NCBI GenBank assembly: GCA_014874455.1 | Contig: JADBJL010000044.1 | Location: forward strand, 1-49,531 | Length of the DNA stretch: 49,531 nucleotides | From: Thermomicrobiaceae bacterium | GTDB taxonomy: Bacteria > Chloroflexota > Chloroflexia > Thermomicrobiales > Thermomicrobiaceae | Direction of reading: 5' to 3' | Part shown: positions 30,609 to 34,188 of the stretch, in pieces | Position numbering within the stretch: position 1 is the stretch's first letter | Layout: each line of letters starts with the position of its first letter | Notes under the pieces: model-generated | The model's input: only the letters and a program-made list of their open reading frames with translations | Told to the model about the DNA's origin: nothing | Database searches by the model: none | Translations under genes and position numbers: made by a program

Positions 30609-32363
30609 TCAAGGCCGGGCGCGCGCGCTGGCCAGCGGTACCCGCCGTGCCTTCAGGTGGCGCACGCGCTCGAGCATCGCCTCGGCGTTGGCGCGTGACT
30701 CCGGCGTGACCGGCAGGCCGTCGAGCATCGCCGCCAGTTCGTCGATCCGCTCCGCTTCGGAGAGACGGGCGACCCGCGTCTCGGCGACGCCGTCCACCTC
30801 TTCCTTGGCGATGCGGAAGTGCGCCTCGGCGAAGGCGGCGATCTGCGGCAGGTGGCTGATGACGATCACCTGGTGCCGGTCGGTCAGCGACCAGAGCCGC
30901 TCGCCGACCACCTGCCCGCTGCGGCCGCCGATCCCGACGTCCACCTCGTCGAAGACCAGCGTGGGAGTCTCGTCGACCTCGGAGAGGATCGACTTGATGG
31001 CCAGCATCAGCCGGGCGGTCTCACCGCCCGAGGCGATGCGCGCCAGCGGCCGTGGCTCCTGGCCGGCGTTCGGGGCGATGAGGAACTCGATCCGGTCGAG
31101 GCCGCTCTCGTCCACGCCGAGCCGGTCGGCGCTGCTCTCGCTCGACCGCCTGAAGGCGACCTCGAACTTGGCCCGGCCCATGTTGAGCGCCCGCATCGCG
31201 TCCTCGACCTGCCGCTCCAGCTCGGCAGCCCGCTGGCGCCGCCGCTGCGAGAGCCGCTCGGCACGCTGGTGGATCTCCTGCGCCAGCTCCTCGATCTGCC
31301 CACGCAACCGTGCGGCTTCCTCCTCGCTGGTGTCGAGTCGCTCCAGCTCCGCTGCCGCACGCCGGGCGTGCTCCAGCACCTCCTCGACCGTCGCGCCGTA
31401 CTTGCGCTTGAGCTGCTTGATCAGCGCCAGCCGATCCTCGACCGCAGCCAGCCGCTGGGGATCGGCCTCGATCGACTCGGCGTAGTGGCGCAGCTCACGT
31501 GCTACCTCTTCCAGTGCGTAGGTCGCTTCCAGCACCTGGCCGGCCAGCGGCCGTCGCTCGAGATCGAGCTGGCCGAGCTCTTCCAGCCGCGCGCCGACGA
31601 GCCGCAGCGCGTCGAGGGCAGCGAGCTGGCCTTCGCCCTCGCCGCCGGCCAGGAGGTCGTACGCCTCCCGGGCGAGCGTCGCCAGGCGCTCGGCGTTCGC
31701 CAGGATCGACCGCTCGCGGGCGAGTGCTTCCTCCTCGCCCGGTCGCAGCCGGGCTGCCGCGATCTCCTGCACCTGGAAGCGGAGCAGGTCGACTCGTTGT
31801 GCCCGCTCGCGCTCCTCGGTCACGAGCTGGGTGTAGGCGCGCCAGGTTCGCCGGTACTCGCGCACCAGCTCCGCCAGTTCCTGCCGCTCCGGCCAGGTAC
31901 CGGCGAAACGGTCGAGCAGGTCGAGCTGGGTCTCTGCTCGCAGCAGCGAGAGGTGCTCGCTCTGGCCGTGGATGTCGACCAGCCGGCGCCCGATCTCGGC
32001 GAGGACGGAGAGCGGTACCGTGCGCCCGCTCACCCGCGCGGTGCTCCGCCCGGTAGCGCTGATATCGCGGGCCAGGATCAAGAGCCCGTCCTCGGGCTCG
32101 ACCCCAGCCTCGTCGAGGAGGGCGCGGACGTCCTCGCGCTCCATAAGGTGGCGCACATCGAACACCGCCTCGACCCAGGCTTTGCTCGCGCCCGAGCGGA
32201 CGAGGTCGGCCGAGGCGCGCGCGCCGAGCGCGGCACCGAGCGCGTCGATGATGATCGACTTGCCCGCACCGGTCTCGCCGGTGAGCGCGTTGAGCCCCGG
32301 CTCGAAGCTCAGGCGCAGCTCGCGGATGATCGCGAGGTCGCGGATCGCCAGTTCTAGGAGCAT
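30609..32363 (-). CDS. recN: DNA repair ATPase RecN
   Basis: The 584-aa protein is an SMC-like ATPase for double-strand-break repair. It begins with LAIRDLAIIRELRLSFEPGLNALTGETGAGKS (Walker A 29-36). A coiled-coil middle (about 160-400, rich in Glu/Arg/Leu) follows, then the ABC signature IASGGETARLMLAIK and Walker B TLVFDEVDVGIGG, and finally HLPQIAAFAEAHF. All motifs are intact and the length is normal (E. coli 553 aa). Start ATG 32363 follows GAGGTAGC. The open frame continues through the repeat region to 32975, but this is not part of the protein. Confidence 0.96.
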   Translation of the reverse strand: MLLELAIRDLAIIRELRLSFEPGLNALTGETGAGKSIIIDALGAALGARASADLVRSGASKAWVEAVFDVRHLMEREDVRALLDEAGVEPEDGLLILARDISATGRSTARVSGRTVPLSVLAEIGRRLVDIHGQSEHLSLLRAETQLDLLDRFAGTWPERQELAELVREYRRTWRAYTQLVTEERERAQRVDLLRFQVQEIAAARLRPGEEEALARERSILANAERLATLAREAYDLLAGGEGEGQLAALDALRLVGARLEELGQLDLERRPLAGQVLEATYALEEVARELRHYAESIEADPQRLAAVEDRLALIKQLKRKYGATVEEVLEHARRAAAELERLDTSEEEAARLRGQIEELAQEIHQRAERLSQRRRQRAAELERQVEDAMRALNMGRAKFEVAFRRSSESSADRLGVDESGLDRIEFLIAPNAGQEPRPLARIASGGETARLMLAIKSILSEVDETPTLVFDEVDVGIGGRSGQVVGERLWSLTDRHQVIVISHLPQIAAFAEAHFRIAKEEVDGVAETRVARLSEAERIDELAAMLDGLPVTPESRANAEAMLERVRHLKARRVPLASARARP

Positions 32364-32481
32364 GCTACCTCGCTCGCCTGCACACCGCCGCAGGGGCGAG
32401 CGCGGTCGTGCAGGGTACCGGTCGGAACCACTCATCTGCAATTGTACGGGAGGGTGGCGGGCGAGGCAGGAGCGCTCGTCG

Positions 32482-32509
32482 TTGGGTGGCGCCCGGGGCT
32501 CGCTATCCT
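32482..32509 (+). promoter_or_regulatory. candidate promoter of the selenoprotein gene
   Basis: TTGGGT (32482-32487), 16 bp and TATCCT (32504-32509) suggest a moderate promoter. It would give a leader of roughly 315 nt before the ATG at 32833. An inverted repeat TCCTGG-TAC-CCAGGA (32506-32520) overlaps its start region. Confidence 0.3.
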
Positions 32510-32522
32510 GGTACCCAGGAGA

Positions 32523-32545
32523 CCGGCAGAGGTCTGGTCTGCCGG
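32523..32545 (+). promoter_or_regulatory. leader hairpin with GGUCUGG loop
   Basis: A perfect 8-bp stem CCGGCAGA (32523-32530) / TCTGCCGG (32538-32545) presents the loop GGTCTGG. The loop shares GGUCU with the SECIS-like hairpin in the coding region downstream. It could bind SelB in the mRNA leader, act as an attenuator or be chance; it has no U-tract. Confidence 0.35.
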
Positions 32546-32614
32546 AGGCCCCGGCTCGCCAGCTCGCACCCCGGCTCCGGCGACAGCTTCGGCCCATTGA
32601 ACTCTTCCGCCAGG

Positions 32615-32758
32615 CCGTCATTCGGCCCTTCGGGCACCCCTCTCCTCCCTCACCCCGGCTTCGCCACCCCTCTCCCGCCTGGCGGGAGAGGGGCTGGGGG
32701 TGAGGGCAGCCACCCCTCTGCCGCGCCGTACGGGAGAGAGGGAAGGGGTGAGGGCAGG
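32615..32758. repeat. interspersed palindromic repeat, copy 2
   Basis: It contains CCCTTCGGGCACCCC at 32626-32640, the inverse of the end of copy 1. A near-perfect 13-bp palindrome CCCCTCTCCCGCC (32667-32679) / GGCGGGAGAGGGG (32681-32693) follows, and the repeat ends with alternating GGGGTGAGGGC modules. It fills most of the 469-nt region between divergent recN and the selenoprotein gene. Together with the promoter and hairpin this is all I see in that region. Confidence 0.6.
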
Positions 32759-32832
32759 CGCTCGCCGACGAGCGTGGTAGGATGGCGGCCAAAGGTGCGA
32801 TCGTGTCCGGGTACCTGGAGAGGAACCGGTAC

Positions 32833-34188
32833 ATGGCCGCGAAGGAGCGATTGGTCATCGTCGGCGGCGACGCGGCCGGGATGAGCGCCGCCGCGCAGGC
32901 CCGGCGGATGCGCGACGACCTGGAGATCGTCGCCTTCGAGCGTGGGCAGCATACCTCGTATTCCGCCTGAGGCATCCCGTACTACGTCGCCGGTCTGGTC
33001 GACGACGAAGACGCGCTGATCGCCCGCTCGCCTGAGGAGCACCGCCGCCGCGGCATCGATGTCCGCCTCGGCCACGAGGTCGTCGCCATCGACCTCGCGG
33101 CGCGTGTCGTCACGGTGCGCCGCCTGGATGACGGCACGAGCTACCGCGAGCCCTTCGACCAGCTCGTCTACGCGACCGGCGCCGGGCCCCGCCGGCTAGA
33201 GGTTCCCGGCGCCGACGCCCAGGGCATCTACGGCGTCGCGACGCTCGCTGACGGTCTCCGGCTGCGTGAGGTCGTCGAGCGCGAGCGCCTGGAGCGGGTG
33301 GCGATCGTCGGCGGCGGCTACATCGGCATCGAGATGGCCGAGGCCTTCGTCGCCCGCGGGCTCGCGGTCGCGCTGGTCGAGCTCGGCCCGCAGGTGATGG
33401 GGACGCTCGACCCGGACATGGGCGCGCTAGTCTCGGCGGCGCTCCGCGAGGCAGGGGTGGAGGTCTACCTCGGCGAGCGTGTGACCGGCTTCCAGGCAGC
33501 CAGCGGGCGGGTGCGAGCCGTGGAGACCGACCGGCGGACGCTCCCGGCCGACCTGGTCGTCCTCGGGGTCGGGGTGCAGCCGCGCACCGAACTGGCGGCC
33601 CGGGCCGGCCTCCCGCTCGGTGAGAGCGGGGCTGTCCGGATCGACGACCGGATGCGCACCGGCATCCCCGGCGTGTGGGCGGCCGGCGACTGCGCCGAGA
33701 CCTTCCACCTGGTGAGCCGCCGGCCGGCCTACATCCCGCTCGGCACCACCGCCAACAAACAGGGACGAGTCTGCGGGATCAACATCGGCGGCGGCTATGC
33801 CCGCTTCCCCGGCGTCGTCGGCACCGCCATCACGAAGTTCGGCCAGACCGAGATCGCGAGGACAGGCCTGAACGAGCGCGAGGCACAGGCGCTCGGCTTC
33901 GAGTACGGCGTCGCCCGGATCGAAGACCGCACGCGAGCGCGCTACTACCCCGACTCCGCGCGGATCGTGGTCAAGTTGCTCGCTGAGAAGGGCAGCGGCC
34001 GGCTGCTCGGCGCGCAGATCGTCGGCGGCCCAGGAGCCGGCAAGCGGATCGACGTTGTGGCCACCGCGCTGCATGCCGGCATGCGGGTCGACGAGTTCAT
34101 GCACCTGGATCTCGCCTACGCGCCGCCCTTCTCGCCGGTCTGGGATCCGCTCCTGATCGCCGCGCGCAAGCTTGCCGAGCAGGTGTGA
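32833..34188 (+). CDS. CoA-disulfide-reductase/NADH-oxidase-like flavoprotein with predicted selenocysteine (Sec46)
   Basis: This 451-aa pyridine-nucleotide disulfide oxidoreductase reads through one in-frame UGA at 32968-32970. Before the UGA come the FAD-binding VIVGGDAAGMSAAAQARR and TSYSA; after it GIPYYVAGLVDDEDALIAR. Relatives have TSYSACGIPYY, where the cysteine is the redox-active residue of CoA-disulfide reductase and NADH oxidase. The UGA is therefore Sec46. Downstream are the NAD(P)H Rossmann motif VAIVGGGYIGIE (about 157-167), GVWAAGDCAE (Asp286 FAD contact), PLGTTANKQGR and the dimerisation segment LAYAPPFSPVWDP. The frame has no other stop. A SECIS-like hairpin begins 14 nt after the UGA. 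Start ATG 32833 has GAGAGG upstream. It would reduce CoA disulfide, polysulfide or oxygen using NAD(P)H. A pseudogene with one nonsense mutation is the alternative and less likely. Confidence 0.85.
32968..32970 (+). other. in-frame UGA predicted to encode selenocysteine
   Basis: The codon replaces the catalytic cysteine codon of the family. It is the only stop in a continuous frame from 32833 to 34188. Flanking residues on both sides agree with the conserved motif SA-x-GIPYY. Confidence 0.83.
32985..33004 (+). promoter_or_regulatory. bacterial SECIS-like element
   Basis: CGTCGCC (32985-32991) pairs with GG-CGACG (32997-33004) leaving one bulged U (32999) and an apical loop GGUCU (32992-32996). 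The loop begins 21 nt after the UGA, inside the range known for bacterial SECIS (about 16-37 nt). The loop matches the GGUCU of the E. coli fdhF element. The E. coli bulged U is on the 5-prime side; here it is on the 3-prime side. Confidence 0.78.

Follow-up and report, generated by a model that had tools for sequence, protein, structure and literature searches.

A probable selenocysteine-containing flavoprotein related to CoA-disulfide reductases in Thermomicrobiaceae

A flavoprotein gene of a Thermomicrobiaceae bacterium, at positions 32833-34188 (+) of the 49,531-nucleotide stretch of DNA analyzed here (the window), carries a single in-frame TGA that almost certainly encodes selenocysteine (Sec) at the catalytic position of a CoA-disulfide-reductase-like enzyme. 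Sec-containing members of this family are already known and have stood on published selenoprotein lists since 2006, a point on which the initial annotation of this DNA was silent. The survey of Zhang et al. in 2006 counted one Sec member of an "NADH oxidase" selenoprotein, in Geobacter metallireducens (PMC1794560); a 2026 review gives "FAD-dependent oxidoreductase (CoA-disulfide reductase)" (TIGR03385, motif UGxP, WP_011365774.1) as a high-confidence prediction (PMC13188914), and the same Sec-containing family also appears in PMC9312934. What may be new is that it occurs in Thermomicrobiaceae, whose branch is separate from that of the Sec enzymes of Geobacter and Syntrophus; the literature searched contained no paper on a Thermomicrobiaceae member, which is no proof of absence.

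The gene, its product, and its surroundings

Direct reading of the plus strand gives one frame from the ATG at 32833, which lies 8-16 nt 3' of a purine-rich, ribosome-binding-like sequence (GGAGAGGAA, 32817-32825). The frame proceeds as MAAKERLVIVGGDAAGMSAAA...HTSYSA-TGA-GIPYYVAGLVDD... with no frameshift and, apart from that TGA, no stop codon before the terminal one, itself TGA (34186-34188). The predicted protein has 451 aa, with Sec as residue 46 (codon 32968-32970, in TSYSA-U-GIPYY) and the UGxP motif present as U-G-I-P at residues 46-49. An open reading frame listing under table 11 contains only the C-terminal piece, 33115-34188, just the split that the initial annotation had foreseen.

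Protein searches were run with Cys substituted for the TGA at residue 46. A Pfam scan then finds Pyr_redox_2 (5.9e-66) and Pyr_redox_dim (8.4e-21) and no C-terminal rhodanese domain, the protein ending at residue 451. The best full-length family match is the CoA-disulfide reductase (CoADR) model TIGR03385, at 447.9 bits against a curated equivalog cut-off of 578.8; NF007123 likewise stays below its cut-off (422.2 bits versus 458), and the model for H2O-forming NADH oxidase scores 246 bits to the 448 of TIGR03385. Solved relatives align end to end (6ruz, 2.4e-119; 3cgb, 9.5e-102; also 5l1n and 4fx9), and the TGA codon falls opposite the Cys of their SYxxCGxPY-type motif, as it does opposite the catalytic Cys of the homologues. 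The initial annotation had placed the UGA at the redox-active Cys, with the frame intact on either side, and had proposed alignment with CoA-disulfide reductases as a check; the alignment bears it out on each point. Further along the alignment to 3cgb, Tyr371 (33943-33945; ungapped over the stretch concerned) and Tyr429 (34117-34119) line up with the two dimer-partner active-site Tyr residues of Bacillus anthracis CoADR, which we take to be Tyr367' and Tyr425', respectively, and for which a catalytic role is presumed from that enzyme.

The gene stands alone, with recN on one side (minus strand, diverging) and gatD-murT-mreC-mreB on the other (minus strand, converging), and no hint of a substrate is found among these neighboring genes. 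L021, L022, and L023, the close relatives described below, retain the gatD-murT side, and L021/L147 retain recN; in L024-L026, L148, and L149, some of which are short loci, neither is adjacent to the gene. An antisense open reading frame over the TGA (30609-32975) was rejected: it is RecN, spuriously extended at the N-terminus, since its homology begins only at residue 205. Opposite recN, a 512-aa open reading frame without a family match (30819-32357, +) is probably an antisense artefact of high G+C. The non-coding interval between recN and the gene (32630-32760) holds imperfect inverted and direct repeats (CCCCTCTCCCGCC / GGCGGGAGAGGGG) that look like a dispersed palindromic repeat.

Codon 46 and the downstream hairpin across homologues

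Comparison covered 88 full-length sequences: the window, 80 sequences from genome contigs, and 7 from genomes of the family. In this alignment, TGA at the position of codon 46 is judged to be beyond chance because all 88 sequences have either TGA (35) or TGC/TGT (53) there, and no other codon. TGA is kept in an uncultured Thermomicrobiaceae bacterium (L021, 95% identical), in the isolate Thermalbibacter longus (L022, 90%), and in L023 (89%), and also in a 58% identical gene from genus g6 of the same family (L111); the 30 other TGA genes come from distant bacteria, mainly Geobacteraceae, Desulfuromonadaceae, and Syntrophaceae, and six members of genus g5, again of the same family, carry Cys. 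Among the four closest sequences, 3 of the 16 codons just after the TGA are variable, which lies in the lowest 8% of windows and is a weak signal. Two side observations concern the comparison set itself. L023 is a contig of "Bacterium HR32" whose gene and the Thermalbibacter longus gene are nearly identical, and it represents a Thermomicrobiaceae genome or else a misbinned contig. The Syntrophus-type TGA genes (L036, L040, L041, L060-L063, and L081) read U-S-I-P, not U-G-x-P, which makes the motif as published too narrow.

A SECIS-like hairpin at 32985-33004 (+), of RNA sequence CGUCG-CC-GGUCU-GG-U-CGACG, starts 14 nt 3' of the TGA. Its stem pairs CGUCG with CGACG (32985-32989 with 33000-33004) and continues in CC/GG inner pairs, with a bulged U at 32999 and an apical loop GGUCU (32992-32996) that begins 21 nt after the UGA. 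Bacterial SECIS elements have 16-37 nt from UGA to loop and a G early in the loop; the GGUCU loop has both, and in the window by itself the hairpin does not exceed shuffles in stability (z of -0.53, and of +0.52 for a 45-nt stretch). The initial annotation had offered a downstream hairpin as evidence for Sec: its presence stands and gains cross-species support, while as evidence from the window alone it proves weak.

What supports this putative element is comparison across species, not the window sequence by itself. The stem register is common to the window and the Geobacter/Syntrophus TGA genes, and, counted over related rows that amount to less than independent observations, all five outer pairs are present in 30 of 35 TGA genes (the other five having four pairs each) versus 8 of 53 among Cys genes. 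In 32 of the 35 TGA genes, the stem's Val, Val, and Asp codons read GTC..GTC-GAC, against a per-gene expectation, from codon use in the same genes, of 0.007-0.33 by lineage; the Thermalbibacter lineage adds little to this evidence because the expectation there is 33%. The outermost pair covaries (C-G 12, U-A 6, and U-G 3 of 24, with 6 both-side changes), a level reached by 6 of 500 shuffles. A test of TGA against complete stem in phylogenetically independent pairs had only 4 pairs on supported branches, too few to give it power, and the fold is also possible in some Cys relatives (L024 and L113). A search of the genome with Rfam SECIS_1 gave no match, a silence that is uninformative because no control genome gave a match either; the Rfam gathering scan of the window was likewise without a match.

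Selenium machinery and other readings of the UGA

The four genes whose presence the initial annotation had named as a check are all found in this genome (G000): tRNA-Sec on contig C96 (73.5 bits; anticodon TCA by ARAGORN), selA (535 bits), selB (352 bits over its two pieces), and selD (374 bits). Selenophosphate synthetase, the product of selD, is probably itself a selenoprotein, because the gene has its own in-frame TGA in SCAG-U-AGK (L101:1531, contig C106). Two formate dehydrogenase alpha genes, likely further selenoproteins, have one TGA each in QARI-U-HSSTVPGLG (L139, about 1924, and L140, about 1921; contigs C110 and C29), at the site where that family normally carries Sec (U-H; PMC13188914 gives a UHxP motif). 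The Sec system thus lacks no component and probably acts on at least four genes. Across the family, selB is above cut-off in 18 of 21 genomes, the other three being 81, 70, and 54% complete, and a tRNA-Sec match of 70-76 bits is listed for 17 of 21.

If the TGA were a nonsense mutation, the gene would be a pseudogene from which only remnants are made, as its split under the ordinary table 11 reading might suggest. This is extremely improbable: the stop coincides exactly with the catalytic Cys, in common with the 30 TGA genes of distant bacteria, and the same TGA recurs in L111, 58% identical and of the same family, as well as in the close sequences L021, L022, and L023. These three have no other stops and no frameshifts, and the downstream part is maintained as protein because differences from the window after the TGA are mainly at third codon positions (43/60, 102/150, and 105/154, respectively). 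A TGC or TGT read as TGA, an error for which the fragmented assembly (114 contigs, estimated contamination 4.6%) might leave room, is given equally little credence, the same TGA being found in other assemblies that include the isolate Thermalbibacter longus and the metagenome-assembled L021. Conservation of the TGA together with the third-position pattern therefore excludes a dead gene and makes sequencing error very unlikely. Translation of the UGA by some other route, whether general readthrough, a Trp-reading code, or insertion of Cys, is only slightly less improbable. Cys-inserting variants of Sec systems exist, and Cys at this UGA would restore the active site too; against these routes stand the complete selA/selB/selC/selD set with TGA-bearing selD and formate dehydrogenase genes in the same genome, and the Cys, not Trp, that relatives carry at this position. 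A general code change is further disfavored because the gene itself terminates at TGA. Sec at residue 46, which the initial annotation had preferred to a broken gene, is thus the reading that we retain, and the frameshifts around the site that it had named as a danger are absent from the close relatives.

The predicted enzyme and the exchange of Sec and Cys

As we picture it, UGA 46 would be decoded as Sec by the organism's own SelA, SelB, SelD, and tRNA-Sec, directed by the short hairpin, and the product would be a homodimer, an FAD/NAD(P)H flavoenzyme in the group of CoA-disulfide reductases, NADH oxidases, and persulfide reductases, with Sec, not Cys, as its sole redox residue beside the flavin. 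Relatives have a single catalytic Cys on the si face of the FAD (PMC7969121). Because the translated 451-aa protein has no second Cys near residue 46, Sec46 probably acts by itself, in the form of Se-S-CoA or selenenic acid. In the most likely cycle, NAD(P)H would first reduce FAD, and FADH2 would then reduce Sec46 from its selenenylsulfide (Se-S-CoA) or selenenic acid form. The selenolate so released would attack CoA disulfide, CoA persulfide/polysulfide, or peroxide, and Tyr371 and Tyr429 from the other subunit would donate protons.

By homology, possible substrates are CoA disulfide, CoA persulfide/polysulfide, and O2/peroxide, and the chance that CoA disulfide is the main one may be put at about even. 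That Sec is inserted but the enzyme serves the cell as an NADH oxidase/peroxidase or as a reductase of persulfide/polysulfide is a serious contender, at somewhat under an even chance. The closest solved relative, 6ruz, was deposited as an NADH oxidase, and the TIGR03385 cut-off is not reached; relatives of the CoADR/Npsr type reduce persulfide and polysulfide, and one from A. fulgidus is inactive on CoA disulfide and has NADH oxidase activity (PMC7969121). Pulling the other way are the standing of TIGR03385 as best full-length family, well above the H2O-forming NADH oxidase model, and the lack of the rhodanese domain that defines Npsr.

The window protein resembles the listed Sec FAD-dependent oxidoreductase, compared here through Geobacteraceae TGA genes of the same family, in having Sec at the catalytic Cys position within UGxP (UGIP here), TIGR03385 as best full-length family, and a hairpin just after the UGA; it differs from the TGA genes compared from other phyla, mostly of Geobacter/Syntrophus type, in being 54-63% identical to them and on a separate tree branch, and its GGUCU loop with a bulged U contrasts with a loop like CGGGUU. 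With Cys-form CoA-disulfide reductases (B. anthracis 3cgb, Pyrococcus 4fx9/5l1n, and Staphylococcus aureus 1yqz) it shares the FAD/NAD(P)H fold and dimerization domain, a single redox residue, and both aligned active-site Tyr residues, but it has Sec for Cys and stays below the NCBIfam equivalog cut-offs. The NADH oxidase 6ruz is the best solved-structure match, over the full length and likewise lacking a rhodanese domain, but its active site is Cys. Npsr and CoA-persulfide reductases (3ntd, 3icr, 6pfz, and 8a56) have a homologous FAD domain with their catalytic Cys at this position, but also a C-terminal rhodanese domain of ~100 aa (PMC7969121) that is absent here.

On a quick, unrooted tree of the 88 proteins, Thermomicrobiaceae (5 Sec, 6 Cys) form one supported group, placed with L024 (Chloroflexota) and Actinomycetota Cys proteins and apart from the Geobacter/Syntrophus Sec enzymes. 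At least 4 changes between TGA and Cys are required where branches are strongly supported, and the best tree requires 8. The stem sequence shared by both Sec groups would be compatible with a hairpin inherited from a common ancestor and, equally, with convergence through shared Val/Asp codons. An independent gain of Sec from Cys in Thermomicrobiaceae with its own hairpin loop, followed by a return to Cys in genus g5, is a tentative proposal that we hold to be rather less than even; most g5 genomes still carry selB and tRNA-Sec. Elsewhere on the tree, L027, L028, and L031 are Cys genes nested among Geobacter-type TGA genes, with the hairpin of L028 broken, and are likely recent reversions from Sec to Cys.

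The corrected annotation keeps the catalytic N-terminus of an enzyme that ordinary reading would lose, and a selenoprotein family of which the 2006 survey counted a single member is now extended to Thermomicrobiaceae. With natural Sec/Cys pairs present within one bacterial family, it should be possible to measure what advantage Sec brings to a single-residue flavin-disulfide reductase. If the independent gain and the reversal in genus g5 are true, the family would be a case of recurrent, two-way exchange of Sec and Cys in a CoA-linked redox enzyme.
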